Assembly: GCF_000739875.1 (NCBI RefSeq)
Contig: NZ_BBJR01000040.1
Location: 1 to 64,000 of the forward strand
DNA length: 64,000 bases
Reading direction: 5' to 3'
Source of the DNA: Comamonas aquatica NBRC 14918
GTDB taxonomy: Bacteria; Pseudomonadota; Gammaproteobacteria; Burkholderiales; Burkholderiaceae_C
Part shown: in pieces, positions 7,404-37,800 of the stretch
How positions within the stretch are numbered: the stretch's first letter is position 1
Layout of the letters: each line of letters opens with the position of its first letter
Notes under the pieces: generated by a model
Seen by the model: only the letters and a program-made list of their open reading frames with translations
Told to the model about the DNA's origin: nothing
The model's database searches: none
Program-made: the position numbers and the translations under genes

Positions 7404-8246
7404 ATGACCCGGGCACCCGCCTCCTTCTGGCGCACCATGGCCGCACTGGCCTGCACCATCGGCCTGCTGCAAGGCTGCGCCAGCACCACCCAATCAGGGG
7501 CCATCGGCCTGCAACGCAGCCAGCTGATGCTGGTGTCCAGCGACAGCATCAACGCCCAGGCGGCCAAGGGCTTCCAGCAGCTCACGGCCGATGCCCAGTC
7601 CAAGAAAAAACTCAACACCGATGCGGCGATGACGCAGCGCGTGCGCCGCATCGGCCACGACCTGATTGCCCAGGTCGGGGTGTTCCGCCCCGATGCGCGC
7701 GACTGGGCCTGGGAAATCAATGTCTTCGAGTCAGAGGACATCAACGCCTTCTGCGCCCCCGGCGGCAAGATCGGCGTCTACACCGGCCTCGTCAACCGGC
7801 TGCGCCTGACCGACGATGAGCTGGCCGCCGTCATGGGCCACGAAATCGCCCACGCCCTGCGCGAACACTCGCGCGAGCAGATGTCGCAAAAGACCCTCTC
7901 CGGCCTCATCACCAGCACCATCGCCGTGGCCACGGGTGTGCCCGGAGAGCTGATGGATGCCGGCTCGCAGATGCTGGTGCACCTGCCCAACTCGCGCGCC
8001 ATGGAGCTGGAGTCGGACGTGATCGGCCTGGAGCTGATGGCCCGCGCCGGCTACGACCCGCGCAATGCCTCGTCCATCTGGCGCAAGATGCAGCAGGTCA
8101 GCGGCGGCCAGCAAGGGGCCTCGTTCCTCAGCACCCACCCCGCGGGCGATCAACGCATTGCCGAGCTGGATGCCTATGTGCCCAAGGTGCTGCCGCTGTA
8201 CCAGGCGGCCGTGGCGCAGAAAAAAGCCCCGGCCCGCAGCCGCTGA
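7404..8246 (+). CDS. M48-family zinc metallopeptidase lipoprotein
   Basis: 280-residue periplasmic protease, probably attached to a membrane by lipid. A signal sequence ends in the lipobox LLQGC with Cys at about 25. The zinc site HEIAH is at about 146-150, inside VMGHEIAHALREHSREQ, and the third ligand is likely the Glu in NSRAMELESDVIGLELM. FLSTHPAGDQRIAEL near the end is typical of the YggG/LoiP and BepA-like group, which clears misfolded outer-membrane proteins. The start is chosen for the signal peptide and an AAAGGA ribosome site at 7392. It stands alone and runs convergently toward urtE, with only 33 bases between the stops. Confidence 0.88.
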   Translation: MTRAPASFWRTMAALACTIGLLQGCASTTQSGAIGLQRSQLMLVSSDSINAQAAKGFQQLTADAQSKKKLNTDAAMTQRVRRIGHDLIAQVGVFRPDARDWAWEINVFESEDINAFCAPGGKIGVYTGLVNRLRLTDDELAAVMGHEIAHALREHSREQMSQKTLSGLITSTIAVATGVPGELMDAGSQMLVHLPNSRAMELESDVIGLELMARAGYDPRNASSIWRKMQQVSGGQQGASFLSTHPAGDQRIAELDAYVPKVLPLYQAAVAQKKAPARSR

Positions 8247-8279
8247 CGCAGCCCCCACGCAGGGGCTGCCCAGCCCGCC

Positions 8280-8972
8280 CTAAATCGCCACCAGCTTCTG
8301 GATCCCCTTGGCCTGCATCTCGGTGCCCGGCCCTGCAGCGATCACCTCGCCGCGCTCCATCACCACGTACTGGTCGGCCAGCGCTTCGGCAAAGTCGTAG
8401 TACTGCTCGCACAGCAGCACGGCCATGCCGCGCTCCTTGGCCAGCATGCGGATCACGCGGCCGATGTCCTTGATGATGCTGGGCTGGATGCCTTCGGTCG
8501 GCTCGTCCAGGATCAGCAGGCCCGGCGCCGGCGCCAGGGCGCGGGCAATCGCCAGCTGCTGCTGCTGGCCGCCGGACAGGTCGCCCCCGCGGCGCTGCAG
8601 CATCTGCTGGAGCACCGGGAACAGCGTGTACAAGTCCTGCGGGATCGGCGTGCGGCCACTTTTGTAGGCCAGGCCCATGCGCAGGTTGTCCTCCACCGTC
8701 AAGCGGCCAAAGATCTCGCGCCCCTGGGGCACAAAACCGATGCCGGCGCGTGCGCGCTCGTAGGGTGTCAGCCCCTGGATGGGCTGGCCGTTCCAGGTGA
8801 TGGTGCCGCTGCGGATGGGCACCAGCCCCATCAGGCTCTTGAGCAGCGTGGTCTTGCCCACGCCGTTGCGCCCCAGCAGCACGGTGATCTGGCCGGGCTC
8901 GGCCTGCACGCTCACATCGCGCAGGATGTGCGAGCCGCCGTAGTACTGGTGCAGGTTTTTAACTTTGAGCAT
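8280..8972 (-). CDS. urtE: Urea ABC transporter ATP-binding protein UrtE
   Basis: 230-residue ATPase, the second of two in the high-affinity urea importer (LivF-like). Intact motifs are Walker A LLGRNGVGKTT, signature LSGGQQQQLAIARAL, and Walker B LLILDEPTEGIQP. The start MLKVKNLHQYYGGSHIL fits UrtE; an upstream extension in frame lacks similarity. It is the last gene of urtABCDE, separated from urtD by 306 bases of repeat-rich spacer. That break is unusual, since these genes normally abut, and UrtE synthesis may depend on read-through or on a promoter inside the spacer. The gene converges with the M48 protease gene. Confidence 0.95.
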   Translation of the reverse strand: MLKVKNLHQYYGGSHILRDVSVQAEPGQITVLLGRNGVGKTTLLKSLMGLVPIRSGTITWNGQPIQGLTPYERARAGIGFVPQGREIFGRLTVEDNLRMGLAYKSGRTPIPQDLYTLFPVLQQMLQRRGGDLSGGQQQQLAIARALAPAPGLLILDEPTEGIQPSIIKDIGRVIRMLAKERGMAVLLCEQYYDFAEALADQYVVMERGEVIAAGPGTEMQAKGIQKLVAI

Positions 8973-8999
8973 TTTTGGCCTCCAACGCAGATCAATCCT

Positions 9000-9122
9000 G
9001 CGCAAGCAGCTCTTATTTCGAGAGCTACTGTTTCAATTTTCATAGCTGCTTGCGCTGGTATTCCGAGGCTTTCAAAGCAAAAATCATTGGAAAACCTCTT
9101 ACTACAAGCGCTAACAGCTATC
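9000..9122. repeat. Dispersed CAAGCGCT-CAGCTAT repeat cluster between urtD and urtE
   Basis: Three arms of the same dispersed element lie here: GCGCAAGCAGCT at about 9001, CATAGCTGCTTGCGCTGG at 9041-9058 (inverse orientation), and ACAAGCGCTAACAGCTATCC at 9103-9122. The second and third arms are partly complementary, so the 80-base stretch 9042-9121 could fold into a long imperfect hairpin. Related copies occur at 19597, 26849, 31974, 47974, 52395 and inside a gene at 55573. The stretch is clearly more AT-rich than its neighbours. Confidence 0.75.
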
Positions 9123-9206
9123 CATCTTCATTGCCCCCAGCTATGCAGATCCGCCAGCACCGCGTCGCGCTGCGGTGGCGACGAGGTGCCAAGCCGCAGA
9201 CAGTCG

Positions 9207-9248
9207 CTGCACTGCACTGCACTGCACTGCGATTTGGCTTGGCTTGGC
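9207..9248. repeat. Two adjacent pentanucleotide microsatellites
   Basis: CTGCA is repeated nearly five times from 9207 to 9230, followed after three bases by three copies of TTGGC (9234-9248). They lie just after the end-to-start gap of urtD, in the urtD-urtE spacer. Neither is in a coding frame that I support. Confidence 0.85.
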
Positions 9249-9278
9249 AACGGCGTATCCAGGCTGGTGTGCATCTCG

Positions 9279-10151
9279 CTAGCGCCCCAGATAGACCTCG
9301 ATCACGCGCTCGTCGGCCTGCACCTGGGCCAGCGTGCCTTCGGCCAGCACGCTGCCGTCGCACAGCACGGTGACCTTCTCGCTGATGGTGGCGATGAAGG
9401 ACATGTCGTGCTCCACCACCATCAACGAGTGCTGGCCCTTGAGGGTCAGGAACAGCTCGGCCGTGCGTGCGGTTTCGTCATCGGTCATGCCGGCCACGGG
9501 TTCGTCGAGCAGCAGCAGCTTGGGCTCCTGCATCAGCAGCATGCCGATCTCCAGCCACTGCTTCTGGCCGTGACTGAGCACGCCGGCCTGGCGGTGGACT
9601 TCGCTGGCCAGGTGGATGGTGTGCAGGATGCCGGCCAGCCGGTCGCTTTGCGCGCTGTCGAGCCGGAAGAACAGGGAGTGCTGCACACCCTTGTGCGTCT
9701 TGAGCGCCAGCTCCAGGTTCTCGAACACCGTCAGCTGCTCGAACACCGTGGGTTTCTGGAACTTGCGGCCAATTCCCAGCTGGGCGATCTGCGGCTCGTT
9801 GTGGCGCAGCAGGTCGATGGTGGAGCCGAAGAACACCGAGCCTTTGTCGGGCCGGGTCTTGCCGGTGATGATGTCCATCATCGTGGTCTTGCCTGCGCCA
9901 TTGGGGCCGATGATGCAGCGCAGCTCGCCCGGCGCAATGTCCAGGTTCAGGCCGTTGATGGCCTTGAAACCGTCGAAGCTGACGTGCACATCTTCCAGGT
10001 ACAGGATGCGGCCATGGGTCACATCGACTTCGCCCGGCGTCGCGATGCGCGCCATGCTGGCGCTGCGACCACCTGAACCGATGTTTTGCGCGGCTTTTTC
10101 AGCCGCGGCACGCATGCGGACCGCGCCCGCTTCCATCAGGTCCGGGGTCAT
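9279..10151 (-). CDS. urtD: Urea ABC transporter ATP-binding protein UrtD
   Basis: 290-residue ATPase (LivG-like) of the urea importer. Walker A IIGPNGAGKTT, signature-equivalent LSHGQKQWLEIG and Walker B LLLLDEPVAGMTDDE are clear. LSHGQKQWLE in place of LSGGQ is characteristic of UrtD. An N-terminal extension of about 40 residues (to GRILYLEDVHVSFDGFKAI) precedes the domain. The start at 10151 overlaps the urtC stop by four bases (ATGA), implying translational coupling. The open frame continues upstream only as a shadow of urtC. The gene is followed by a 306-base spacer with repeats rather than by urtE directly. Confidence 0.95.
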   Translation of the reverse strand: MTPDLMEAGAVRMRAAAEKAAQNIGSGGRSASMARIATPGEVDVTHGRILYLEDVHVSFDGFKAINGLNLDIAPGELRCIIGPNGAGKTTMMDIITGKTRPDKGSVFFGSTIDLLRHNEPQIAQLGIGRKFQKPTVFEQLTVFENLELALKTHKGVQHSLFFRLDSAQSDRLAGILHTIHLASEVHRQAGVLSHGQKQWLEIGMLLMQEPKLLLLDEPVAGMTDDETARTAELFLTLKGQHSLMVVEHDMSFIATISEKVTVLCDGSVLAEGTLAQVQADERVIEVYLGR

Positions 10152-11293
10152 GCCGCACCTCCCTCTTGCTTCGATCCGAACTTGCCGCGCAGCTTGCGCA
10201 CCACGCCGACGATGCCCTGGGGCATCCACAGTGTCACGGCGATGAACAGAGCGCCCAGGAAATACAGCCAGAACTCCGGCGCCGCCACGGTGAGCCAGCT
10301 CTTGGCGCCATTCACGGCAAACGCGCCGACGATGGGGCCGATCAGGCTGCCGCGCCCGCCCACGGCCGTCCACACGGCGATCTCGATCGAGCTGGCGGCC
10401 GACATTTCCACCGGGTTGATGATGCCCACCTGGGGCACGTACAAGGCCCCGGCCAGGCCGCACATCATGGCGCTGATGACCCAGATGGTCAGCTTGTAGG
10501 GCAGCGGCGCATAGCCCGAGAACATGACGCGCGACTCGGCATCGCGGATGGCCTGCAGCACGCGGCCAAACTTGCTGCGCACCAGCCAGCGCGCCAGCAG
10601 AAAGCAGCCCAGCAGGGTGCAGCCCGTCAGCACAAACAGGGCCATGCGCATCTCCTGCGTGGCCAGCGGCATGCCGAGGATGCGCTTGAAGTCCGTGAAA
10701 CCGTTGTTGCCGCCAAAGCCGGTTTCATTGCGGAAGAACAGCAGCATGGCCGCATAGGTCAGCGCCTGCGTGATGATGGAGAAATACACACCCTTGATGC
10801 GCGAGCGGAAGGCAAACCAGCCAAACACGAAGGCCACCACACCGGGCACCGCGAAGATCAGGATGAAGGTGGCGATGAAGCTGTCCGACAGCGCCCAGAA
10901 CCAGGGCAGCTCCTTCCAGGCCAGGAACACCATGAAGGCGGGCAGCTCCTCGGCGCCCACGGACTGGCGGCTCAGGTACATGCCCATGACATAGCCACCC
11001 AGCGCAAAGAACAGGCCATGGCCCAGGCTCAGGATGCCGGTGTAGCCCCAGATCAGGTCCATAGCCAGCGCGCAGATGGCGTAGCACATGATCTTGCCCA
11101 GCAGGCGCACGGCGTAGTCCGACAGGTGGAACACGCTGCCCTCGCCCACCCACAAGTTCAGCACCGGGGCCACGGCACAGACCACGACCAGCGCCAGCAT
11201 GAATGCCGACCAGCCGGCCTTGGTGAGCAGCGGTTGGCGCCCCGGCAACTCCACCGGCACAAACACGCTTGATTTCAAAACAGAACTTGTCAT
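10148..11293 (-). CDS. urtC: Urea ABC transporter permease UrtC
   Basis: 381-residue inner-membrane permease of the LivM type that pairs with UrtB to form the urea channel. Many hydrophobic helices are visible. Family markers include AMDLIWGYTGILSLGHGLFFALGGY, GVYFSIITQALTYAAMLL, FSGYAPLPYKLTIWVISAMM and the C-terminal FLGALFIAVTLWMPQGIVG. It overlaps urtD by four bases. Between its start and the end of urtB lie 148 bases that contain one copy of a dispersed hairpin repeat, so the operon is interrupted by non-coding DNA here as well. The start codon ATG gives the normal length. Confidence 0.95.
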   Translation of the reverse strand: MTSSVLKSSVFVPVELPGRQPLLTKAGWSAFMLALVVVCAVAPVLNLWVGEGSVFHLSDYAVRLLGKIMCYAICALAMDLIWGYTGILSLGHGLFFALGGYVMGMYLSRQSVGAEELPAFMVFLAWKELPWFWALSDSFIATFILIFAVPGVVAFVFGWFAFRSRIKGVYFSIITQALTYAAMLLFFRNETGFGGNNGFTDFKRILGMPLATQEMRMALFVLTGCTLLGCFLLARWLVRSKFGRVLQAIRDAESRVMFSGYAPLPYKLTIWVISAMMCGLAGALYVPQVGIINPVEMSAASSIEIAVWTAVGGRGSLIGPIVGAFAVNGAKSWLTVAAPEFWLYFLGALFIAVTLWMPQGIVGVVRKLRGKFGSKQEGGAA

Positions 11294-11352
11294 TACTTAG
11301 CTCCCGCACCCAGCAAGGAATAAAGCCAGCTTTCGCGGTAGACAGCCCGCAA

Positions 11353-11430
11353 GGGCCGCCCCGCAGCGAGGCTGTCGTCCCCTTTCCCGCGCAGCGAGAG
11401 AAAGGGGAAGCGGCGTAGCCGCACAGGGGA
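11353..11430. repeat. Dispersed GGGCCGCCCC...GCGGCGTAGCCGC repeat, copy 1
   Basis: This roughly 78-base element begins GGGCCGCCCCG and contains TGTCGTCCCCTTTCCCGC, GCAGCGAGAGAAAGGGGAAG and CGGCGTAGCCGC. The CCCCTTTC and GAAAGGGG parts, and the GCGGC/GCCGC parts, are self-complementary, so it can fold into two hairpins. A second copy lies at 32083-32170, upstream of pyrC'. Both copies are in spacers inside minus-strand operons. Confidence 0.8.
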
Positions 11431-11441
11431 TTGATTCAGGT

Positions 11442-13043
11442 TCATTCCGCGCTCCGGCCCTTCATCGCGAAGATGCCCTGGGGCCGCTTCTGGATGAAGG
11501 CGATGATGAACACCAGCACCGCGATCTTGGCCAGCACCGCGCCGGTCCAGCCTTCGAGGAACTTGTTCAGGATGCCCAGCCCCAGCGCGGCATACACCGT
11601 GCCCGCCAGCTGGCCCACGCCGCCCAGCACCACCACCATGAAGGAGTCCACGATGTAGCTCTGCCCCAGGTCGGGGCCGACGTTGCCCACCTGGCTCAGC
11701 GCGCAGCCGGCCAGGCCGGCAATGCCACTGCCCAGGGCAAAGGCCAGCGTGTCCACGCGCGCCGTGTTCACGCCCATGCAGGCCGCAATCGGGCGGTTCT
11801 GCGTGACCCCGCGCACGAACAGGCCTAGGCGGGTGCGTGCAATCAGGTAGGCCACACCCGCCAGCACGGCGAAGGCAAAGGCGATGATGATCAGGCGGTT
11901 GAAAGGCAGGGTCAGGTTGGGCAGCAGCTGCCAGCCACCGCTCATCCACACCGGGTTTTCCACGGCCACGTTCTGCGCGCCGAAGGTGGAACGCACCAGC
12001 TGCATCAGCACCAGCGAGATGCCCCAGGTGGCCAGCAGGGTCTCCAGCGGGCGGCCGTACAGAAAGCGCAGCACGCCGCGCTCCATCACCGCACCCACCA
12101 GGGCCGAGGCCAGGAAGGCCACGGGCAGAGCCGCCAGCAGGTACCAGTCAAAGAAGTCGGGCAGGTAGCTGCGGAACACGCCCTGCACCACATAGGTGGC
12201 GTAGGCGCCAATCATCATCAGCTCGCCGTGGGCCATGTTGATCACGCCCATCAAGCCGTAGGTGATGGCCAGGCCCAGGGCCACCAGCAGCAGGATGGAG
12301 CCCAGGCTGATGCCGGTGAAGGCCACGCCCAGGCGCTCGCCCCAGGCCAGCTGGTCCTTGACCTCGGCCAGGGCGCGCTTGAGCGCCGCCTGCACCTGGG
12401 CATGCGGCTCCTGCGCCAGTTGCTCGTTCAGCAGCAGGCGCGTGGCCGGTGTGGCGTGGCGCGCCAGCAGGGCCGCGGCGTCGATGCGCTGCTCGGCCTG
12501 CGGACTGCCCAGCAGGGCCGCGGATTTCGCCAGCGCCAGCGCGGCCTGGACGTCCGCCTGCTGCTCTCGCGCCAGGGCCTTGTCGAGCAGCGGCAGGCGT
12601 TCGGGCGTCGCGCCCTGCAGCATGGCCTGGGCCGCTTCCAGGCGTTCGGCATCGTTGCCCACCAGCAGGTTCAGTGCGGCCAGGGCGTTGCCGATCTCAC
12701 GGCGCAGGCGGTTGTTGGTGCTGGCGTCACTCGCCCCCTCGGGCAGCGGCACGGCCTGCCCCGTCACGGGGTCGCGGGCTTCGCCCCCGCGCACGATGAA
12801 GGCCGCCGCGCCGGTGAACTGCACCTCACCGTCGCGCAGGGCCTGCAGGAAGTCGGCCGTGCGGGCGGCATCGCCCGTGGCCGCGGCCTCCTGCATGGCG
12901 GCAATGCGGCTGTTGTTGTCGCCATCGGCCATGGCCAGCGCCTGCTCGGCCGTCAGCGCCTGGGCCGGGGCCTGCCACAGGGCCGCGCAGGCCAGCGCTG
13001 CGCCCAGCCAGGGCCGGAGGGTGCGCAAGAGGGGAAAAAGCAT
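11442..13043 (-). CDS. urtB: Urea ABC transporter permease UrtB
   Basis: 533-residue permease of the LivH type. As in other UrtB proteins, a signal sequence (about 1-29) and a periplasmic N-terminal extension of about 220 residues precede the membrane domain. That domain begins near WGERLGVAFTGISLGSILLLVALGLA and includes YGLMGVINMAHGELMMIGAY, the family's hallmark. The C-terminus with QKRPQGIFAMKGR is also typical. The extension is helical and alanine-rich and carries no recognised catalytic motif. The gene lies 100 bases after urtA, separated by a hairpin, and 148 bases before urtC. Confidence 0.95.
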   Translation of the reverse strand: MLFPLLRTLRPWLGAALACAALWQAPAQALTAEQALAMADGDNNSRIAAMQEAAATGDAARTADFLQALRDGEVQFTGAAAFIVRGGEARDPVTGQAVPLPEGASDASTNNRLRREIGNALAALNLLVGNDAERLEAAQAMLQGATPERLPLLDKALAREQQADVQAALALAKSAALLGSPQAEQRIDAAALLARHATPATRLLLNEQLAQEPHAQVQAALKRALAEVKDQLAWGERLGVAFTGISLGSILLLVALGLAITYGLMGVINMAHGELMMIGAYATYVVQGVFRSYLPDFFDWYLLAALPVAFLASALVGAVMERGVLRFLYGRPLETLLATWGISLVLMQLVRSTFGAQNVAVENPVWMSGGWQLLPNLTLPFNRLIIIAFAFAVLAGVAYLIARTRLGLFVRGVTQNRPIAACMGVNTARVDTLAFALGSGIAGLAGCALSQVGNVGPDLGQSYIVDSFMVVVLGGVGQLAGTVYAALGLGILNKFLEGWTGAVLAKIAVLVFIIAFIQKRPQGIFAMKGRSAE

Positions 13044-13061
13044 AGGTCATCCAATCAGCAA

Positions 13062-13088
13062 AAGGCCCGTCCGGTGGGGACGGGCCTT
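13062..13088 (-). terminator. Intra-operon hairpin between urtA and urtB (partial terminator or RNA-stability stem)
   Basis: AAGGCCCGTCC (13062-13072) pairs perfectly with GGACGGGCCTT (13078-13088) around a 5-base loop. On the minus strand the stem ends in TTTT. It begins 56 bases after the urtA stop. In such operons a hairpin after the binding-protein gene keeps binding protein in excess over permease; I infer that role here. Confidence 0.75.
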
Positions 13089-13143
13089 CGGGTCGAGGTG
13101 CGGTTCACCGGTGCAACCGCGCTGCGGCCGCACGCGTGTCCCC

Positions 13144-14412
13144 TCACTTCTTCTCGGGCTCGTCCTTCTTCTTGTCGTTGCCGTCGATGAAGGGGCTCCA
13201 GGGCTGGGCCTTGATGGGTTCCTTGGTCTTCCAGACCACGTTGAACTGGCCATCGGCCTTGATCTCGCCGATCAGCACCGGCTTGTGCAGGTGGTGGTTC
13301 TTGGCATCCATGGTCAGCGTGAAGCCGCTGGGCGCCTTGAAGGTCTGGCCGGCCATGGCGGCGATCACTTTGTTCACCTCCAGGGACTTGGCCTTTTCCA
13401 CGGCCTGCTTCCACATGTGGATGCCGACGTAGGTGGCTTCCATGGGGTCGTTGGTCAGCGGCTTGGTGGACTGGCCGGGCAGGTTCTTGGCCTTGGCATA
13501 GGTGCTCCACTGCTTGATCCAGGCGTCGTTGGTGGGGTTCTTGACGCTCATGAAATAGTTCCACGAGGCCAGGTGGCCGACCAGGGGCTTGGGATCGAGG
13601 CCGCGCAGCTCTTCCTCGCCGACCGAGAAGGCCACCACAGGCACCTCGGTGGCCTTGATGCCGGCGTTGCCCAGTTCCTTGTAGAAGGGCACGTTGGAGT
13701 CGCCGTTGATGGTGGAGATCACGGCCGTCTTGCCCCCCGCAGCGAACTTCTTGATGTCGGCCACGATGGTCTGGTAGTCGCTGTGGCCAAACGGGGTGTA
13801 GGCCTCCATGATGTCCTTGTCGGCCACGCCCTTCTTCTTCAGGAAGGCACGCAGGATCTTGTTGGCCGTGCGCGGGTAGACGTAGTCGGTGCCCAGCAGC
13901 ACCCAGCGCTTGGCGCTGCCGCCGTCCTCGCCCATCAGGTATTCCACGGCGGGAATGGCCTGCTGGTTGGGCGCTGCGCCGGTGTAGAACACGTTCTTGG
14001 ACAGCTCCTCGCCCTCGTACTGCACGGGGTAGAACAGCAGGGCATTGTTTTCCTCATAGACCGGCAGCACCGACTTGCGGCACACCGAGGTCCAGCAGCC
14101 GAAGGTCACGGCCACCTTGTCCTGGCTGATCAGCTGCTTGGCCTTTTCCGCCGCCAGCGGCCAGTTGGAGGCGGTGTCGATCACCACGGGCTCCAGCTTC
14201 TTGCCCAGCACACCGCCCTTGGCGTTGATGTCCTCGATGGTCATCAGGGCCATGTCCTTGAGGGCGGTCTCCGAAATCGCCATGGTGCCCGACAGGGCGT
14301 GCAGCACACCCACCTTGATGGTGTCGGCCGCCTGGGCGGACAGTGCGGTAAAGCCCATGCCGGCAACGGTTGCGGCAGCGGCCAGGGTCTTCAGGGTGAA
14401 ACGGCGTGGCAT
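13144..14412 (-). CDS. urtA: Urea ABC transporter substrate-binding protein UrtA
   Basis: 422-residue periplasmic urea-binding protein. The signal peptide is unusually basic at the start (MPRRFTLK) and ends near LSAQAAD. Family features include IKVGVLHALSGTMAISE, DAALMTIEDINAKGG-like text in the mature N-terminus, GCWTSVCRKSVLPVYEENNALLFYPVQYEG, and TYVGIHMWKQAVEKA. The start at 14412 has GAGGAG upstream; the frame continues a few codons further. It is the first importer gene after the response regulator and is followed by a hairpin that probably limits read-through to urtB. An inverted-repeat operator candidate lies in its 92-base upstream region. Confidence 0.96.
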   Translation of the reverse strand: MPRRFTLKTLAAAATVAGMGFTALSAQAADTIKVGVLHALSGTMAISETALKDMALMTIEDINAKGGVLGKKLEPVVIDTASNWPLAAEKAKQLISQDKVAVTFGCWTSVCRKSVLPVYEENNALLFYPVQYEGEELSKNVFYTGAAPNQQAIPAVEYLMGEDGGSAKRWVLLGTDYVYPRTANKILRAFLKKKGVADKDIMEAYTPFGHSDYQTIVADIKKFAAGGKTAVISTINGDSNVPFYKELGNAGIKATEVPVVAFSVGEEELRGLDPKPLVGHLASWNYFMSVKNPTNDAWIKQWSTYAKAKNLPGQSTKPLTNDPMEATYVGIHMWKQAVEKAKSLEVNKVIAAMAGQTFKAPSGFTLTMDAKNHHLHKPVLIGEIKADGQFNVVWKTKEPIKAQPWSPFIDGNDKKKDEPEKK

Positions 14413-14462
14413 GGTGAGAACTCCTCTCGGTGGGTTGATGGAGTCCATGCTAGGGATGACCC

Positions 14463-14491
14463 GGTACGGCGCCTATACGCCGGATGGCGTA
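14463..14491. promoter_or_regulatory. Inverted-repeat operator candidate upstream of urtA
   Basis: TACGCC (14476-14481) and GGCGTA (14486-14491) form a perfect dyad with a GGAT spacer. A third related half-site, GGTACGGC, lies at 14463-14470. The sites are 50-80 bases before the urtA start and directly after the gene for a LuxR-type response regulator. They are good candidates for its binding site, though I cannot show binding. Confidence 0.5.
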
Positions 14492-14504
14492 CGCCCTGCG
14501 CCGT

Positions 14505-15482
14505 TCATCCGCCCTGGCGCAGCCGCCCCAGGGCCAGGGCCGCGGCCGCCGTGCGCGTTTCCACGCCCAGCTTGGCGTGGATGCGCTCCAGGTGCTTTTT
14601 CACCGTGGCCGGGCTGCTGCCCACGATGTCGGCAATGTCGCGGTTGATCTTGCCCTGCGCCACCCAGAACAGCACCTCGGCCTCCTTGGCCGTCAGCGCA
14701 AAGGCCTCGCGCAGCAGCTGGGCCGCGGCGCTGCCCGACTCCTCGCGCATCACCACCAGCAGCTCGCCGCCCTGCCCCTCTTCCATCGGCGGGTGCAGGT
14801 GCAGCACCAGGCGCCGGTCGCTGCCGGCCACGGGCTGGGGGGCCGCCAGCACCCAGCGGGGCGGCTCGGCCAGCCCTTGCAGCACCCCGTCCAGCTGCCG
14901 CGCCATCCAGTGGCGCAGGGTCTCGCCCACGGTGGCGCTGCCGGCGTCACCGGGGCTGTCGCCATAGGCCAGCAGCAGGCGGCGCGCCAGCGCGGTCTGC
15001 CACAGGATGCGGCCATCCGCCACGCGCACCGTCATGCTGGCGTAGCCAAAGGCATCCAGCGCACTGCGCGCCTGCAGCGCCTGCTGCGCCTGGCTGCGGG
15101 CGCGCCGGGCGGTGCCCAGGTGCACCTGCATGCGGGCCAGCACCTCGGCGGGCTTCAGGGGTTTGGTCACATAGTCCACGCCGCCGGCGGCCAGGGCGGC
15201 CACCAGGTGCTCGGTCTCGGTCAATCCGGTCATGAACACCACCGGGATGGCCGCGGTCTGCGCATCGGCCTTGAGGCGGCGCGCCACCTCGAAACCGTCC
15301 ATGCCCGGCATCAGCGCATCCAGCAAGATGATGTCTGGCTGGGCCTGCGCGGCGCGCTGCAAGGCCTGCTCGCCATGCGTGGCCACCAGGACGGTGTAGC
15401 CCGCCTCATCCAGCGCGTCGTGCAGCACCGACAGGTTGTCGGGCACGTCGTCCACGATCAGCACCACGTCCGGCGCGTTCAT
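14505..15482 (-). CDS. Response regulator, receiver plus LuxR/NarL-type DNA-binding domain
   Basis: 325-residue transcriptional regulator. Residues 1-125 form a receiver: VVLIVDDVPDN acidic pocket, phosphoacceptor Asp55 in IILLDALMPG, Thr in VVFMTG and Lys in YVTKP. A middle segment of about 130 residues (FGYASMTVRVADGRILWQTA) looks PAS-like. The C-terminus FALTAKEAEVLFWVAQGKIN and KKHLERIHAKLGVETR is a LuxR-type helix-turn-helix. It has no AAA+ domain, so it is not the activator of sigma-54 promoters. The start overlaps the kinase stop by four bases, so kinase and regulator are surely partners. The likely target is urtA, directly downstream. Confidence 0.9.
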   Translation of the reverse strand: MNAPDVVLIVDDVPDNLSVLHDALDEAGYTVLVATHGEQALQRAAQAQPDIILLDALMPGMDGFEVARRLKADAQTAAIPVVFMTGLTETEHLVAALAAGGVDYVTKPLKPAEVLARMQVHLGTARRARSQAQQALQARSALDAFGYASMTVRVADGRILWQTALARRLLLAYGDSPGDAGSATVGETLRHWMARQLDGVLQGLAEPPRWVLAAPQPVAGSDRRLVLHLHPPMEEGQGGELLVVMREESGSAAAQLLREAFALTAKEAEVLFWVAQGKINRDIADIVGSSPATVKKHLERIHAKLGVETRTAAAALALGRLRQGG

Positions 15483-18400
15483 GGCAGCCCCACATCCGTC
15501 GCCTGCTGCTGCGCCACCGCGCGCGCCAGGCCGTCCATGTCGAACTGCTGCACCAGGCCGCGCCACTGCGTCCACAGCACCGCCTGCGCGGGGTGTGCCT
15601 GCTCCAGCTGCGCCAGGGCCTGGCGCACGCCGCGCACATAGCCCAGCTGCAGCGCCTGGCACAGCGGCGCCAGGTCCTCGGCCGGGACCGCGGCGACGGG
15701 CGGGCCATCAGCCCCAGGTTCTTTGCTATTGAATTGCATAGCATCCTGCACCCACTGTACGGGCGTTGCGGTGGTTTTTGCTTCTAGCGCGTAGTGCCAC
15801 ACCAGGTCCAGACGTTGGGCCAGCCAGTGCAGCAGCTCGCTGTGGCGCACGGGCTTGACGAGGAAGTCCTGCGGCGCAATCCCCACGTCGTTGGGCAGCT
15901 CGCGGTCAAAGGCATTGGCCGAGACCACGGCGCAGGCGATGTCACCGGCCTGCAGCGCCCGCAGGCGGCGCAGCGTTTCCCAGCCGTCGATGCCGGGCAT
16001 GGCCAGGTCCATGAAGACGGCATCGGGCACCCAACCGCCCGCCACCCAGGCCAGGGCCGCATGGCCGCTGTCGGCCTGCTGCACCTCGAAGCCCAGCGGT
16101 GCCAGCAGCTGCCGCAGCACGCCGCGGTCGGCCTCCTCGTTGTCCACCACCAACACCCGGCGGCGCGGCCCAGCATAGCCCACGGGCATGCGCTGCAGCG
16201 GCGCGACGGCGGGCGCCACGCCCTCGACCGAGGGCAGGAACAGCCGCACCTCGAACACCGCGCCCTGGCCCGGTGCGCTGTGCAGGGTCAGCACGCCGCC
16301 CATCAGTTCGGTCAGCATCTTGGCCATGGTCAGGCCCAGGCCGGCACCGCCCGCCGCCGTGGCGGCCTGGCCGCGCTCGAAGGGCTCGAAGATGCGCGCC
16401 TGCTCCTCGGGCCCCAGGCCCGGGCCGGTGTCGATCACGCGCACGATGGCCATCTGCCGCGCATGCTGCACCTGCAGGGTGACGTGGCCCTGCTGCGTGA
16501 ACTTCAGCGCATTGCCCAACAGGTTGATGACGATCTGGCGCAGCCGCTTTTCGTCGGCCCGCACCACGGCGGGCAGCCGCCCCTGCACCTCGTAGTGGAA
16601 GGCCAGGCCCTTGGCCTGGGCCTGCAGGGCGAACAGATCGGCCAGGGCCTGCATGCCTTCGGCAAAGTGCATGGGCGCCACCTGCAGGGCCAGCTTGCCC
16701 GATTCGATGCGCGCCACGTCCAGCGTGCCCTCGATCAGCGACAGCAGGTGCTCGCCGCCACGCCGGATCACCTGCACCGCGTGCTGGCGGTGCGGGGGCA
16801 CGCTGTCATCGGCCCCCATGAGCTGGGCGTAGCCCAGGATGCTGTTGAGCGGCGTGCGCAGCTCGTGGCTGATGGCGCTGAGGTAGCGGCTCTTGGCCTG
16901 GTTGGCGTGGTCGGCGGTTTCGCGTGCCGCCTCGGCCACGGCACGCGCCTCTTCGGCGGCTTTGCGGGCGCTTTGCAGCGCGGCATCGGTCTGCTGGTGC
17001 AGGGCGATTTCGCGCACCAGCAGGCCGGTCTGGCGGTTGGACTCTTCCTGCGCCACGCGGCGGCTCTGGTGCGCCAGCACCAGCCACCAGGCGACGATGC
17101 CGGCAATCAGCAGCAGGCCCAGGTAGGCCTTAAGCATGGCCGAACCCAGCGCCGCCTGTGCGGCCTGCAGCGCGGCCGGCGTCATGGCGGTGCGCTGCAG
17201 GGTCTGCAGCTCCTGGTGGTAGAGCAGACCCAGCACCGCGGCCAGCAGCGGGGCAATCACCAGCATCAGCAGCAGAAAGTGCCCCAGGCCCTTGTCGAAC
17301 AGCCGCCACAGCTGCTCCGGCAGCAGCCAGCGCAGCGCGGCGCGCCACTGCACGCCCCAGTGCGCCTGGGGCTTGCACAGGTCGCCGCAGCGCGCATCCA
17401 GGGTGCAGCACAGCGAACAGATGTGACCGCCATAGGCCGGACAGTGGGCCATGTCCGGCACTTCGTAGTCGCGCTCGCACACGGTGCAGCGCAGGGTGTG
17501 CACGGCCTGGGCCTGGGGGACCGCGCGGCAGCCCGTGCACCCGGCGCAGGCCTGTGCCGGCAGCGTGGCCGTGCGCGCCAGGTAGTAGCGCCCGCGCGTG
17601 GCCCAGGCAATCAGCGGCGCGGCGACCAGGGCCACCACCATGGCGATCAGGGCCGAGAAGGCCTGGGCCAGCGGCCCGAACACGCCCAAGTGGGCCGCGA
17701 TCGACAGCCCCGAGGCCAGGCCCATGGCCCCCACGCCCACGGGGTTGATGTCGTACAGGTGGGCACGCTTGAATTCGATGCCCCGCGGCGACCAGCCCAG
17801 CGGCTTGTTGATGACCAGGTCGGCCACCACGGCCATGATCCATGCGATGGCGATGTTGGAGTACAGGCCCAGCACCTCACCCAGGGCGCGGAACACATTC
17901 ATCTCCATCAGCATGAAGGCGATCAGCGTGTTGAACACCACCCACACCACGCGCCCGGGGTGGCTGTGCGTGAGGCGCGAGAAGAAGTTGGACCAGGCCA
18001 GCGAGCCCGCATAGGCATTGGTCACATTGATCTTGAGCTGCGAGATCACCACGAACAGCGCCGTGGCCGCCACCGCCCAGCCGTAGTGCGGGAAGACGTA
18101 CTCATACGCCGCCAGGTACATCTGGTTGGGATCGACCGCATGGCTGGCCGGCACGGAGTGCGAGATCGCCAGGTAGGCCAGCAGCGCACCGCCCAGCATC
18201 TTGGCCACACCCAGCACCACCCAGCCCGGACCGCCCAGCAGCACGCCGGACCACCAGCGCAGCCGCGTGGTCTGCGCGCGCGCCGGCATGAAGCGCAGGT
18301 AGTCGGCCTGCTCCCCCATCTGGGTGATCAGCGCGATGCCCACGGTCAGCGCCGCACCAAAAAGAGGCAGTGAAAAGTGCGCACCCGCGCCCGACTCCCC

Positions 18401-19075
18401 ACCGTAGTGCACCACCTGCGCAAACGCACCGGGATTGCGCAGCAGCACGTAGACAAAGGGCACGACCAGCATCAGCAGCCACAGCGGCTGGGTCCACATC
18501 TGCAGCCGGCTGATCATGGACACCCCGTGCGTGACCAGCGGAATCACCACCAGGGCGCAGATCAGGTAGCCCCAGGCCGGCGGGATGTCCAGCGCCAACT
18601 CCAGCGCATAGGCCATCACGGCCGCCTCCAGCGCGAAGAAGATGAAGGTGAAGGTGGCGTAGATCAGCGAGGTGATGGTCGAGCCGATGTAGCCAAAGCC
18701 TGCGCCGCGCGTCAGCAGGTCCATGTCCACCCCGTAGCGCGCCGCGTAGACGCTGATGGGCAGGCCCGCCGCAAAGATGATCAGGCCGGTGGCCACGATG
18801 GCCCAGAAGGCATTCGCCCAGCCGTACTGCACCAGCAGCGTGGCGCCCACGGCCTCCAGGATCAGGAACGAGGCCGCGCCGAACGCGGTGTTCGCCACCC
18901 GCCACGCAGACCAGCGCCGAAAGCGCTGCGGCGTGTAGCGCAGGGCGTAGTCCTCCAGGGTTTCCGTCGCCACCCAGCCGTTGTAGTCGCGGCGCACCTT
19001 GACCACCTGCTGCGGCACGCAGGGGTCGGTCGAGGCAGGCGTCACAGGCGCGGCAGCGGCAGGGGGCTGGGTCAT
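15479..19075 (-). CDS. NCS1-type transporter fused to hybrid sensor histidine kinase
   Basis: 1198-residue membrane sensor. Residues about 60-500 form a complete NCS1 (cytosine/purine/hydantoin permease) domain with some 12 hydrophobic segments, for example [20 protein letters not shown] and [17 protein letters not shown]. Residues 510-567 hold eleven cysteines in CxxC-like pairs, a likely metal site. Two further membrane helices (about 598-618 and 648-668) and a coiled coil (680-730) lead to HisKA with His737 ([13 protein letters not shown]), an ATPase with N, G1 and G2 boxes (851-920), and a receiver with Asp1023. A 110-residue tail follows. The transporter part presumably senses a nitrogenous solute. 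The first ATG giving a normal N-terminus is used. It is co-transcribed with its regulator and urtABCDE. Confidence 0.9.
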
Positions 19076-19108
19076 GGTGGGTCCAGCGATGCAGCTTCTG
19101 TGCCCGAC

Positions 19109-19124
19109 TGGCACGGTGCTTGCA
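19109..19124 (+). promoter_or_regulatory. Sigma-54 promoter of ureA-hupE-ureB-ureC
   Basis: TGGCACGGTGCTTGCA is a complete match to the RpoN consensus TGGCACRNNNNTTGCW. GG is at 19110-19111 and GC at 19122-19123, with 10 bases between. The predicted start is about 19135, giving a leader of about 137 bases before ureA. It lies in the 196-base divergent spacer between the sensor-kinase gene and ureA. Confidence 0.8.
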
Positions 19125-19136
19125 CTGCAGGTGCCA
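19121..19136 (-). promoter_or_regulatory. Opposed sigma-54-like promoter of the sensor-kinase/urt operon
   Basis: On the minus strand the sequence reads TGGCACCTGCAGTGCA. It keeps TGGCAC, the 10-base spacing and TGC, and deviates from the RpoN consensus at two positions. Its -12 GC falls on exactly the same base pairs (19122-19123) as that of the rightward promoter, because TGCA is palindromic. The predicted start is about 19110, 35 bases before the kinase start codon. The two promoters face each other and cannot be occupied together. Confidence 0.6.
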
Positions 19137-19271
19137 TGCCCTGGTGACCGCCCGGGCGCCGCACGGCCCGCCGTGTGTGCGCGCGCCGGGCGGCATGCAG
19201 GCCGCGACATGGCATGGCCGCCCCGCCCCCGTCCACGGGGCCGGCGCTGCGGACCGATGGAGGGAATCGAC

Positions 19272-19574
19272 ATGGAATTAACGCCGCGAGAAAAAGACAA
19301 GCTGCTCATCTTCACCGCCGCGCTGCTGGCCGAGCGCCGCCAGGCCCGTGGCCTGAAGCTGAACTACCCGGAATCCGTGGCCCTGATCAGCGCCTTCGTC
19401 ATGGAAGGCGCCCGTGACGGCAAGACCGTGGCCCAGCTGATGAGCGCGGGCCGCACCGTGCTGACGCGCGCCGACGTGATGGACGGCGTGGCCGAGATGA
19501 TTCCCGACATCCAGATCGAGGCCACTTTCCCCGATGGCACCAAGCTGGTCACGGTGCACGAACCTATCGTCTGA
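19272..19574 (+). CDS. ureA: Urease gamma subunit UreA
   Basis: 100-residue smallest structural subunit of urease, which hydrolyses urea to ammonia and carbamate. [37 protein letters not shown] and [15 protein letters not shown] are diagnostic, as is [20 protein letters not shown] at the end. A strong ribosome site GGAGGGA lies at 19259. The length is normal. It is the first gene after the sigma-54 promoter and is followed by a 63-base spacer containing a dispersed repeat, then hupE, so hupE is inserted between ureA and ureB. Confidence 0.98.
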
Positions 19575-19596
19575 GCGACCGTCCAGAACTTGCAGC

Positions 19597-19645
19597 CTTT
19601 TAGGCCTCTAGCCCTTATTCCACCAGCGCAGACAGCTATGAAAAC
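19597..19645. repeat. Dispersed CAGCTAT repeat copy that supplies the hupE start codon
   Basis: The segment contains GGCCTCTAGCCCTTATTCCA followed by CCAGCGCAGACAGCTATGAAAA. This matches the copies near 9041 (inverse) and 31974. The ATG of hupE (19638-19640) is part of the conserved AGCTATGAAAA, so the repeat provides the start codon and first residues (MKTK). Confidence 0.75.
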
Positions 19646-20255
19646 CAAGAACCTGATCACCACCCTCCTCGCCACCGCGTCGGCCCTGCCGCTGAGCGCC
19701 CTGGCCCACGTGGGCGCGGACGGCGGTGGCCACCACAATTTCCTCGACAGCCTGGGCCACGCTTTCGCCCACCCCTTTGGCGGCGCCGACCACCTGGCGG
19801 CCATGCTGGCCGTGGGCGCCTGGAGCGCCCTGGCCTTTCCCCACCACGGCACGGTCTGGCGCGCCCCGGCGGCCTTTGTGGCCCTGCTGGTGGCCGGCTG
19901 CCTGGCCGGCTTTGCGGGCCTGCACGTGCCGGCCGTCGAGCCCATGATCGCCGCCTCGGTGCTGGTGCTGGGCCTGCTGGTGATGGTGCGGCAGAAGATG
20001 GCCTGGGGTGCCGCCGCCGCCCTGGTCGGGGTGTTTGCCTTCTTCCACGGCGCGGCCCACGGCTATGAGCTGTTCGAGGACAGCGCCGCCGCCGCGGCCG
20101 GCGCCGTGCTGGGCATGGCAGCCGGATCGGCCCTGCTGCACCTGGGCGGCATGGCCTTGGGCCACCGCGTGATGCAGCGCCACCAGTTGCTGGCCAGGCT
20201 GGCAGGCGCCGCGACCGCCGTCCTGGGCGTGGCCCTGCTGACGCGTCTGGCCTGA
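19638..20255 (+). CDS. hupE: HupE/UreJ-family nickel permease
   Basis: 205-residue inner-membrane protein that brings Ni(II) (possibly Co) into the cell for urease. The signal-like N-terminus ends at LSALAHVG. The signature [18 protein letters not shown] is complete, and a second histidine-rich segment, [14 protein letters not shown], follows. About six hydrophobic helices are visible. The position between ureA and ureB, in the same direction, supports nickel supply to urease. The symbol ureJ is equally valid. The start lies inside a dispersed repeat and has no strong ribosome site, so translation might be weak or coupled. Confidence 0.92.
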
Positions 20256-20272
20256 TCCCACGGAGGCACCAC

Positions 20273-20578
20273 ATGATTCCTGGTGAACTGCTCCTGGACG
20301 AGGGGGCCCACCCCCTCAACCCCGGCCGGCGCACGGTCACGCTGCTGGTCAAGAACGCCAGCGACCGCCCCATCCAGGTCGGCTCGCACTACCACTTTGC
20401 CGAAACCAACGCGGGCCTGGACTTCGACCGCGCCAGCGCCCACGGCATGCGCCTGAACATCGCCAGTGGCATGGCCGTGCGCTTCGAGCCCGGCCAGCAA
20501 CGCACGGTGGAGCTGGTCGACATCGGCGGCGACCGCCAGATCTACGGCTTTCGCGGCCTGATTCAAGGAGCACTTTGA
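20273..20578 (+). CDS. ureB: Urease beta subunit UreB
   Basis: 101-residue structural subunit. [39 protein letters not shown] and [20 protein letters not shown] are diagnostic. The C-terminal [10 protein letters not shown] is typical. A ribosome site GGAGG (20262-20266) precedes the ATG. The gene lies 17 bases after hupE, and its stop is one base from the ureC start. UreA, UreB and UreC are separate polypeptides, as in most bacteria other than Helicobacter. Confidence 0.98.
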
Positions 20579-20579
20579 T

Positions 20580-22298
<1,719 letters not shown>

Positions 22299-34892: not shown

Positions 34893-37800
34893 TCAACCAT
34901 CGACCGCTTCGGCACCGGCGGATTCCGCCGCCAGCGGCAGCGGTTTGCCGACGGCATAGTGGTGCACCAGGCCCATCAGCTCCTCGTCCGAATACGGCTT
35001 GCCCAGGTAGTGGTTGGCCCCCAGCTCCATGGCCAGATCGCGGTGCTTTTGCGCCATGCGCGAGGTGATCATGATGATGGGCAGGTGCTGCAGCCGCGCC
35101 TGCGCGCGGATGTTGCGCAGCAGGTCGAACCCGTCCATGCGCGGCATCTCGATGTCCGACAGCACCACGCAGGGCAGCTCCTCCTGCAGCTGCTCCAGCG
35201 CCTGCAGGCCATCAGCCGCCGTGACCACCCGGTAGCCCTCGCGCTGCAGCAGGCGCTGCGAGACACGGCGCACGGTGATGGAATCGTCCACCACCATCAC
35301 CAGGGGCACCTGGCTGGCGGCCTGCATCCCGGACAGCGGCACCTGCGGCGCCATCGCGTGCTGCAGCTGCTGGGCCGCCTGCGCGTCCAGCAAAGCCGGC
35401 AGGCCCGCACCCAGCTGGCGAATCTGCGTGCCATACACGGCCGTCAGCGCCACCGGGTTGTAGATCAGCACCACCGCCCCGGAAGCCAGCACCGACATGC
35501 CGGTCAGCCCCGGCAGGCGAGACATCTGCGCCCCCAGGTGCTTGACCACCACTTCCTGGTGGCCCAGCACTTCGTCCACGTGCAGCGCAATGCGCTGCGA
35601 GGCGCTGCGGCAGATGACCACGGGGCGCGTCTTGCCGGCGCCGACTTCCAGGCTGCGCGGCGACTGGCTCCACACCGCACCGGCCCAGAAGAAGGGCACG
35701 CGGTCCTCGCCATCGACCAGCTCGCCGGTGCGGTAGGCCGCCTCCAGGTCCGCCAGGCTGACGCGGCGCACCACCTCGACCAGGCTGGCGGGCACGCCCA
35801 CCGAGAACTCGCCCGCGCGCAGCATCACCACCTGCGTCACGGCCGTGGTCAGCGGCAGCACCAGACGGAAGGACGAGCCCTGCCCGTCCTGGGTCACGGT
35901 CTCGATGCGCCCCCCCAGGGCCTGGACTTCCGAGCGCACCACGTCCATGCCGATGCCGCGACCGGACACACCGGTCAGCTGCTCGGCCGTGGTGAAGCCC
36001 GGCATGAACACCAGTTGCGCCGCGCGGGCGGCATCCACCGTTTCCTCGGCCGTGATCAGGCCACGCTCCAGCGCCTTGTCGCGGATGCGCGCCACGTTCA
36101 GGCCGGCGCCGTCGTCGCTGACGCGGACGGCCACGTCGTTGCCTTCCTGCTGCACGTGCACCTGGATGCTGCCGGTGGCCGGCTTGCCCGCGGCCACGCG
36201 CTCATCGGGGGTCTCGATGCCATGGTCCACGCAGTTGCGCAGCAGGTGCTCGAAGGCCGGCACCATGCGTTCCAGCACGCCGCGGTCCATCTCGATGGTG
36301 CCGCCGGACAGGCCCAGCTTCACCTGCTTGCCGGTTTCTTTGGCCGTCAGGCGCACCACGGCATACAGGCGCTCCGAGATCGCATCGAACTCCACCATGC
36401 GCGTGCGCAGTAGGTCGCGCTGCAGCTCGCGCGCCTGGCGGCCCTGGGCCACCAGGTCGTCTTCCGCACCCGCCACATCGCGCAGCAGGTTGCGCTGCAC
36501 CGTGGCCACGTCGTTGACCGACTCGGCCATCATGCGGGTCAGCTCCTGCACCCGGGTGAAGCGGTCGAATTCCAGCGGATCGAAGTCCGCGCCGGCCTCC
36601 TTGGACAGCTGCATGCGCGACTGCATCTGGGATTCGGCCTGCACCTCGATGTCGCGCAACTGGTGGCGCAGACGCTCGAGGTTGTGGGTCAGGTCGTTGA
36701 GCGAATGCTTGATGCTGCCCACCCGCTCATCCAGGCGCGAGCGGGCAATCATCACCTCACCGGCCTCGTTGATCAGGCGGTCCAGCAACTGCGCACGCAC
36801 GCGCACCGTCTGCTGCACGCCCTGGCGCACGCCACCGGCCAGCGCTGGCGGCGGCGCTTCGGGGGGCACGGCCACAGGCTGTGCCAAGGCCGCCGGGGCG
36901 GGGGCGGCATCCACCACATTCGCCACCTGGGGCTGCGCCGCCGTGGCTGGCGGCACGGCATCCGCGGGCAGCGCCCCTTCCAGGTTGCTGGCCACCGGTT
37001 CGATGCGGACCGGGGTTTCGGGGGCTTGCTCACCCACCGCGCGCAACAGGCCGAAGCTGGCTTCCATGCTGTCCAGGCGCCCGAACAACGGCTCAATCTG
37101 CTCGGTGGTGACCGTGTCGACATCCAGCGCTTCCAGCGCCGACTCCAGGCGGTGGGCCATTTCGCCCAGGCGCAAGGCACCAGCCAGGCGGGCGCTGCCC
37201 TTGAGGGTGTGCAAGGCACGCAGCAAGGTGCTGCGGGCTTCAAGCCGCGTCGGATGCCCCGCCCACTCCCGCATCGCGGCGCCCAACACGGGCAGCAGTT
37301 CCACCGCTTCCTCTTCAAAGATCGGGAACAGGTCCGGATCGATGACATCGAACACATCGATGTCATCGTCGCCGTCCACCCCAGCCTGGGGCATCGCGGC
37401 ATCAGATGGCGGCACCAGCGGCGCACTGCGCTCCTGTGCCACGGCGGCAGCCTGCGGCAGGGGTTCGTCCACCTCGGCCGGTGCTTGCGCCGCGACCGGT
37501 GCGGGCGCCAGTTCCAGATTGGCTTGCAGCACGTCCTGCAAACGCTGCTGCACATCGGCCGAAGCCGTGCGCAGGAAGCCGGCCGCAAACTGGTGCAGCA
37601 AACCACGGATTTCCTCCGCTGCCTGCACAAACACCTGGACCTGCTCGGCCACACCGCAGGCCTGGGGCTCCACGTGCTGCAGCGCGGCTTCCAGCTTGCG
37701 TGCCAGACCCGACAGTGCCTGGAAGCCGACGGTGGCCGAGCTGCCAGCCAGCGAGTGGGCCCACGCGATCACGGAATCGGGCTGGGCTTCCTCCAGGTTC

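Follow-up and report, generated by a model that had tools for sequence, protein, structure and literature searches.

A hybrid histidine kinase with an NCS1-type transporter domain and a cysteine module, encoded between urea importer and urease genes in Comamonas aquatica

Overall organization of the kinase

The window studied here is a 64,000-nucleotide stretch of DNA from Comamonas aquatica NBRC 14918 (contig NZ_BBJR01000040.1, positions 1 to 64,000). On its minus strand, between the genes of a urea importer and those of urease, it encodes a hybrid histidine kinase with a transporter-like domain at its N terminus. From comparison with its relatives, the protein seems rather likely to be a transceptor-type sensor of urea and short amides, which would drive a coupled LuxR-type regulator and through it the urt and ure genes. 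The kinase gene and its segments are as follows.

15479..19075, minus strand: hybrid histidine kinase with an NCS1-fold input domain, 1,198 residues, open from ATG to stop
17561..18988, minus strand: NCS1-fold transporter domain, residues ~30-505 (Mhp1/CodB fold match; homologues above the PF02133 cut-off; alignment)
17372..17488, minus strand: eight-cysteine module, residues 530-568 (invariant cysteines; treble-clef-like model)
17222..17278, minus strand: extra transmembrane helix 1, residues 600-618 (hydropathy, helix in the model)
17072..17128, minus strand: extra transmembrane helix 2, residues 650-668 (hydropathy, model)
16232..16906, minus strand: HisKA and HATPase_c core, residues 724-948, with His737 (Pfam, sequence)
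15827..16156, minus strand: receiver, residues 974-1083, with Asp1023 (Pfam, sequence)

A longer frame for the kinase reaches a GTG at 19315 on the minus strand. This start is disfavoured because the frame would enter ureA, which begins at 19272 on the plus strand.

The Pfam matches span residues 727-793 (HisKA), 841-947 (HATPase_c) and 974-1083 (Response_reg, the receiver). His737 is the histidine of the H-box, in the motif SHELRTPL. The protein has the elements of a hybrid histidine kinase: HisKA with the phospho-acceptor histidine, HATPase_c, and a receiver with its aspartate. The transporter and kinase are linked by the cysteine module, which contains strands, and by two helices; in the predicted model, helix 2 is part of one long helix that continues into the kinase. 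A first-pass annotation of this DNA had proposed an NCS1-type transporter-kinase chimera, and the open frame, His737, Asp1023, the receiver and both helices (~600-618 and ~650-668) were all found.

The N-terminal domain has the NCS1 fold

The sensor region was modelled with AlphaFold2 from an alignment of 77 sequences (the window and the named genomes), with a predicted local distance difference test (pLDDT) score of 80.8 and a predicted template modelling score (pTM) of 0.79. A Foldseek search of the Protein Data Bank (PDB) with this model places chains of the NCS1 transporters Mhp1 and CodB in ranks 1-5 (E 7.7e-9 to 6e-7; the best values are 7.7e-9 for Mhp1 and 7.8e-8 for CodB). The template modelling scores of these five matches, by target length, are 0.64-0.74. 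Other families with the LeuT fold, SLC5-type structures included, rank below NCS1. Structure prediction had been put forward in the first-pass annotation as a check on the NCS1 proposal, and these matches bear the proposal out.

Homologues intermediate in sequence give the same assignment. The stand-alone homologue L153, which is 48% identical to the domain, scores 31.5 bits with PF02133 (cut-off 23.5); the stand-alone homologues L152 and L154 are below the cut-off. L050, a transporter that passes PF02133 and has ~25% identity to the window domain, aligns with the family alignment in hhalign with a probability of 97.9 (E 4.6e-13). With phmmer against the PDB, L050 matches Mhp1 weakly (E 0.04), and the query L150 matches no transporter.

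The NCS1 assignment of the N-terminal half therefore stands on fold and intermediates, since the direct PF02133 search and the profile search of solved structures gave no NCS1 match. On this evidence from model and sequence, residues ~30-505 are a diverged NCS1 domain. A second apparent NCS1 'fusion' (a 957-residue frame, L187) was rejected, being a long upstream frame.

The cysteine module

Eleven clustered cysteines, described earlier for residues 510-567, are at the predicted positions (510, 513, 516, 530, 533, 545, 553, 556, 557, 563 and 567), but only eight of them (Cys530, Cys533, Cys545, Cys553, Cys556, Cys557, Cys563 and Cys567) are invariant in all 26 aligned sequences; residues 510, 513 and 516 are not. 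The spacing over residues 530-567 is C-x2-C-x11-C-x7-C-x2-CC-x5-C-x3-C. The cysteines were counted in open reading frames with an NCS1-domain identity of 40% or more, with identical segments taken once and slight variation in spacing allowed. All eight are kept in each of the 175 frames that have a signalling tail, the window copy included.

The eight cysteines are also present in L133, which is cut by the end of its locus, and in the stand-alone L152 (L139, a cut copy of the L152 gene, was left out of the scoring). In contrast, the stand-alone genes L153, L154 and L242 retain only Cys530, Cys533, Cys553 and Cys556, and L241 from Arthrobacter has lost both of these pairs. As the same four cysteines are lost in three genes, the pattern suggests two sites, formed by residues 530/533/553/556 and 545/557/563/567.

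Modelled by itself, the module has a mean pLDDT of 71.6 and a pTM of 0.49, and is well predicted over approximately residues 10-40, with strands followed by a helix. Its Foldseek matches in the PDB are mostly PHD, RING, FYVE and LIM fingers, none of them significant (best E 0.45). The profile search of the region, proposed in the first-pass annotation, yielded RING-like sequence matches, each non-significant by itself, and only their agreement with the fold matches is used here. The module is probably a two-metal treble-clef finger, putatively stabilized by zinc. The module, described earlier as a metal-like cysteine linker, is not solely a signalling linker, as it is also found on the kinase-less L152.

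The putative substrate pocket

A joint alignment was made of 20 rows from the sensor family and its outliers, 28 NCS1 rows and Mhp1. The NCS1 rows were chosen by hydrophobicity, and at least one of them (L189) looks like a wrong frame. Trp117, Gln121, Trp220 and Asn318 of Mhp1, which we take to be substrate-site positions, align with Phe146, Glu150, Leu249 and Asn353. The asparagine is kept, and the other three positions are changed. Glu150, Asn353 and Lys348 are identical in all 79 sensor rows, two of which come from one gene. Residue 146 is Phe in 74 rows and Leu in five, and Leu249 is Leu in 77 of the 79.

Lys348 is located at Ser312 of Mhp1 in the joint alignment, or at Thr313 by way of the L050-Mhp1 alignment; these two residues belong to the sodium site of Mhp1. 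In the first transmembrane helix (TM1), Glu74 is present in 79/79 sensor rows. The five stand-alone proteins L152, L153, L154, L241 and L242 have Gln or Phe at this position and Asp at residue 73 (the residues of L241 and L242 were assigned by eye). Glu74 is thus a candidate mark separating sensor from transporter, with these five genes as the only stand-alone members compared.

Gene neighbourhood

The order in the window is urease genes, divergent region, kinase, regulator and urea importer. The neighbouring features are as follows.

14505..15482, minus strand: LuxR-type response regulator, 325 residues (its ATG overlaps the kinase stop, ATGA)
13144..14448, minus strand: urtA, binding protein of the urea ABC transporter (TIGR03407, 575.5 bits, cut-off 492.75)
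11442..13043, minus strand: urtB (BPD_transp_2 and place in the cluster)
10148..11293, minus strand: urtC (BPD_transp_2 and place in the cluster)
9279..10463, minus strand: urtD (ABC_tran, BCA_ABC_TP_C; longest open reading frame, true start probably further in)
8280..9005, minus strand: urtE (ABC_tran and place in the cluster)
19076..19271, no strand: divergent intergenic region between the kinase and ureA, a likely promoter region
19272..19574, plus strand: ureA (translation; a search with it locates ureA at the corresponding position in many relatives)
20580..22298, plus strand: ureC (Urease_alpha, Amidohydro_1)

The genes urtB, urtC, urtD and urtE were named by fold family and position. 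Judging from the ATGA overlap, the regulator is translationally coupled to the kinase. The placement between urea importer and urease genes was described correctly in the first-pass annotation, with the regulator and urtABCDE on the strand of the kinase and ureA divergent at 19272. A scan for the sigma-70 consensus over 8000-20500 found no promoter. Elsewhere in the window, a minus-strand frame of 2,023 codons is open at 34893-40964.

The association with urea genes, also proposed at that stage, recurs among the relatives. A locus was scored by the presence, above set identities, of ureA/ureC, at least two urt genes, fmdA, amiE or amiS. Such urea or short-amide markers are beside 115 of 136 loci, across Proteobacteria, and in none of 20 displaced 18-kb stretches, placed by hand in genomes of the family and the order/class/phylum sets. 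They are found in 51 of the 60 named loci of 18-22 kb, 14 of the 20 named loci of 3.7-17 kb, all 18 family loci (L032-L049, 9-16 kb), and 32 of the 38 order/class/phylum loci (8-20 kb, stand-alone genes and odd outputs included). The named loci, among them loci of Variovorax paradoxus and Rubrivivax gelatinosus, are the best 80 of at least 595 stretches confirmed in a scan of named species genomes; the family and order/class/phylum loci were chosen for diversity and are not random samples.

Several settings can be recognized. In the urea setting, the kinase-regulator pair adjoins ure and urtABCDE; an annotated example, with urtABCDE, kinase and regulator, is on a Sinorhizobium medicae plasmid. 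In the amide setting, annotated on a Burkholderia vietnamiensis plasmid, the pair is divergent from a UrtA-like importer followed by FmdA, often with FmdB and AmiE. A third setting has FmdA with AmiS/UreI and an EAL-domain regulator (identified in L035 with Pfam and NCBIfam; sister loci share the gene clusters). The binding protein of the amide-type locus L043 also passes TIGR03407; as the importer alone does not separate the settings, they were told apart by the company of fmdA or amiE.

Mapped on a quick tree of 86 rows, the two main settings (urea in 28 rows, amide in 28) require a minimum of seven changes from one to the other, or six after one row from a two-copy genome is dropped; these counts are bare minima on that tree, with no shuffle comparison. 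One and the same sensor thus changes between urea and amide company, and its ligand should suit both. A nucleobase or hydantoin specificity, as the permease type named in the first-pass annotation would imply, is not supported, the neighbours being urea and short-chain amide genes (formamidase, aliphatic amidase, AmiS/UreI).

In several relatives, the regulator is separated from urtA by other genes that span some kilobases. At L059:14621-18639 they include one that weakly resembles a proteasome-type protease (TIGR03634, with a score well short of the cut-off).

Distribution, outputs and stand-alone relatives

Relatives were sought by tblastn with residues 1-500, the source genome being counted each time in sets that partly overlap. 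Matches were found in 85 of 150 genomes in the family set (with no more than 26-27% identity in G029 and G065), in 52 of 300 in the order set (with no more than 25-26% in G176, G303 and G368), in 17 of 369 in the class set and in 53 of 398 in the phylum set (a short fragment in G1015). Among 72,556 plasmid records, 539 match, 342 of them from Klebsiella and 78 from Sinorhizobium. The annotations among the rows listed are 'ATP-binding protein', 'hybrid sensor histidine kinase/response regulator', 'ArcB', 'response regulator' and 'hypothetical protein'. The copies in G049:C1:1577396-1580325, G106:C7:121929 and G884:C3:144713 have stop codons within the domain.

On a conjugative IncFIB/IncFII plasmid of K. 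quasipneumoniae (L239), the kinase is divergent from urtABCDE and an annotated formamidase. Going by this one record, a nitrogen-use module rides on Klebsiella plasmids.

Most of the relatives examined are hybrid kinases. By Pfam, a kinase without receiver is present in L042, L049, L169 and L235 and in the clade III members scanned (L032, L033, L035 and L036), and L233 has a PAS-PAS-kinase-receiver output. At L232:5852-9526, the NCS1-cysteine-helix module is joined to PAS-GGDEF-EAL with no kinase, and because of this replacement the L232 input may act through cyclic di-GMP. In the amide-type locus L043, a GGDEF protein follows the regulator (12105-13577), and the regulator of L035 has an EAL domain; together they are a hint of cyclic di-GMP output. 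On these architectures, the NCS1 domain with its cysteine module is a reusable input with several outputs, not a one-off chimera.

The stand-alone relatives are found in similar company. L152 is in an fmdA-fmdB-amiE cluster, divergent from a complete kinase-regulator pair, and L153 adjoins ureA and ureC. L242 (8950-10557), annotated as 'hypothetical protein', heads ureEFGJDABC on a plasmid of a permafrost Acinetobacter lwoffii; it is kinase-less, and the urt genes have no match in this plasmid stretch. L154 is on a short contig with no marker. L241 (8929-10608), a kinase-less homologue with 44-47% identity on a plasmid of Arthrobacter (Actinomycetota), has no marker match. These settings suggest that the stand-alone transporters carry urea or amides, and thereby point to what the sensor domain may bind. 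The outgroup branches of the quick tree are very long, and for this reason we make no claim as to whether the sensor arose from the transporter or the transporter from the sensor.

Proposed mechanism and alternatives

In the proposed mechanism, the LeuT-fold NCS1 domain would bind urea in the window protein, and either urea or a short-chain amide (formamide or acetamide, for example) in its relatives. The cysteine module and the hairpin of two helices would relay the bound or cycling state to the kinase. Phosphate would then move from His737, probably via Asp1023, to the LuxR-type regulator, which would control urtABCDE and the divergent urease operon. We infer the ligand, the direction of the switch, metal binding and the regulon. 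The support comes from sequence: the domain make-up, the conservation of residues in the pocket, the order of genes in the operon, the recurrence of urea/amide genes nearby, and the kinase-less transporters in urease and formamidase clusters.

Several observations weigh against this mechanism. PF02133 gives no match to the window protein at E ≤ 1 or to the isolated domain at E ≤ 10, and the profile libraries report nothing over residues 1-500. Trp220 of Mhp1 is replaced by a leucine. The named loci are close relatives and their counts are not independent. Markers are missing from nine of the 60 long and six of the 20 short named loci, and from six of the 38 wider loci. L232, L233 and L235, which have other outputs, show none; L222 is scored markerless with a urtA (63%) at its edge, failing the two-gene rule. 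Of the nine genomes with long markerless loci, seven encode urease and an above-cut-off urtA at another place, which speaks for the mechanism; the metagenome-assembled genomes G1166 and G1167 gave neither. Finally, in CbrA, a Pseudomonas kinase with an SLC5 transporter domain, deletion of that domain left target activation as in the wild type; a fused transporter domain is therefore not necessarily the main input. Of all the points against, this one cautions most strongly against treating such a domain as the sole input.

The best surviving alternative is that the NCS1 domain still transports, with urea or amide carried together with protons, and that the kinase reads flux or an occluded state. 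This is possible, though we think it the less likely course. The pocket residues are retained, and stand-alone versions are found in urease and formamidase clusters. Lys348 at the sodium site recalls Lys196 in the Na2 site of CbrA, where histidine transport is proton-driven. On the other hand, the sensors differ from the five stand-alone proteins at Glu74 in TM1, which could mean a loss of transport, as in Ks-Amt5.

The cysteine module itself could be the sensor, of redox or metal state (for example, the metal of a hydrolase), with the transporter domain only an anchor or modulator. Its eight cysteines are kept in all 175 output-fused frames, and CbrA signals without its SLC5 domain. Nonetheless, we consider it unlikely: the module is present on the kinase-less L152 and half-lost in L153, L154 and L242, a pattern that points to a structural function bound up with the transporter, and the NCS1 domain is itself strongly conserved.

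It is slightly more doubtful still that the sensor in fact recognizes a ureide or nucleobase of the classical NCS1 kind (hydantoin, allantoin, uracil, cytosine) that is broken down to urea, the urea genes being downstream targets. The NCS1 fold would fit such a ligand, and in Rhodococcus a kinase-less relative of 31% identity adjoins hydantoinase genes. The settings with formamidase, amidase and AmiS do not fit it, however, and no ureide genes are among the neighbours of kinase-fused members named by Pfam or annotation, no dedicated search having been made.

Lastly, a passive hitch-hiking of the neighbourhood, in which the kinase has another role and selection on other genes keeps the linkage, might explain the 21 of 136 loci without a urea or amide gene nearby (some of them short), but it is highly improbable given that the linkage recurs with two operon types in distant groups and in none of the 20 controls, and that the kinase-regulator order with divergent ure or urt-like genes recurs in many loci.

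The mechanism of urea and short-amide sensing through the NCS1 domain can be extended to a general proposal, which we regard as evenly balanced: that the NCS1-cysteine-helix unit is a mobile urea/short-amide input module, sister to an unrecognized NCS1 subfamily of urea/amide transporters. Few transporter-kinase receptors have been characterized (CbrA, CrbS, RpuS and Ks-Amt5 among the papers surveyed), and with the present protein they would gain a further transporter family, a new linker module and a ligand that is likely to be nitrogenous. The sensor type is found in hundreds of genomes and on plasmids, and would make urea/amide sensing in Proteobacteria directly testable. The natural pairs of sensor and kinase-less transporter are a means to learn how transport turns into signalling, and they point to an unrecognized urea/amide branch of NCS1 transporters.

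Comparison with known systems

The first-pass annotation had judged an NCS1-type kinase with a cysteine linker to be poorly characterized. In agreement with this, no description of an NCS1-kinase fusion was found among the open-access papers listed, subscription papers being mostly outside the search. A published table for Dechloromonas aromatica lists, in near succession and without comment in the part available, a 1,131-residue histidine kinase, a 308-residue receiver protein and UrtA. Judging from that table, this trio presumably represents the system described here. The Burkholderia kinase GrtK, which senses ammonia, was rejected as an equivalent, having 427 residues and a PilS-type membrane domain. 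At L113:6865-9977 (Zoogloea), a markerless kinase is beside a PilS-like kinase and a sigma-54 regulator; these domain types are GrtK/GrtR-like, possibly by chance.

Mhp1 and CodB are the best structural matches, with the TM8 (transmembrane helix 8) asparagine of Mhp1 kept and Gln/Glu at the TM3 position. The identity in the structural match is ~16%, however, the Ser/Thr of the sodium site is replaced by Lys348, and the window protein is fused to a signalling output.

CrbS/MxtR has a LuxR-type partner. It also resembles the window protein in joining a transporter domain to a kinase and a receiver. In contrast, its architecture is SLC5-STAC-PAS, and it serves acetate utilization. The proposed NCS1-cysteine-helix module would be comparable to SLC5-STAC and would plug into hybrid kinases, simple kinases or PAS-GGDEF-EAL.

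In CbrA, the SLC5 domain transports histidine in a proton-driven manner, with Lys196 in the Na2 site. The window protein shares with it an N-terminal transporter domain of the LeuT fold on a histidine kinase, a putative place in carbon and nitrogen nutrient regulation, and a lysine in the Na2 region. CbrA has an SLC5 domain, a STAC linker and a PAS domain, no receiver, and histidine as its substrate; the window protein has the NCS1 fold, the eight-cysteine module, two extra helices and a receiver, no PAS domain, and urea/amide genes nearby. Pfam finds no SLC5/SSF domain in it.

In Ks-Amt5 of Kuenenia, too, a histidine kinase has acquired its input domain from a transporter that takes up a small nitrogen compound. 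Ks-Amt5 has a trimeric Amt domain for ammonium and no linker domain, in contrast to the NCS1 domain, cysteine module and urea/amide setting described here. The NCS1-type input is an addition to this known kind of transporter-kinase, represented by CbrA and Ks-Amt5.

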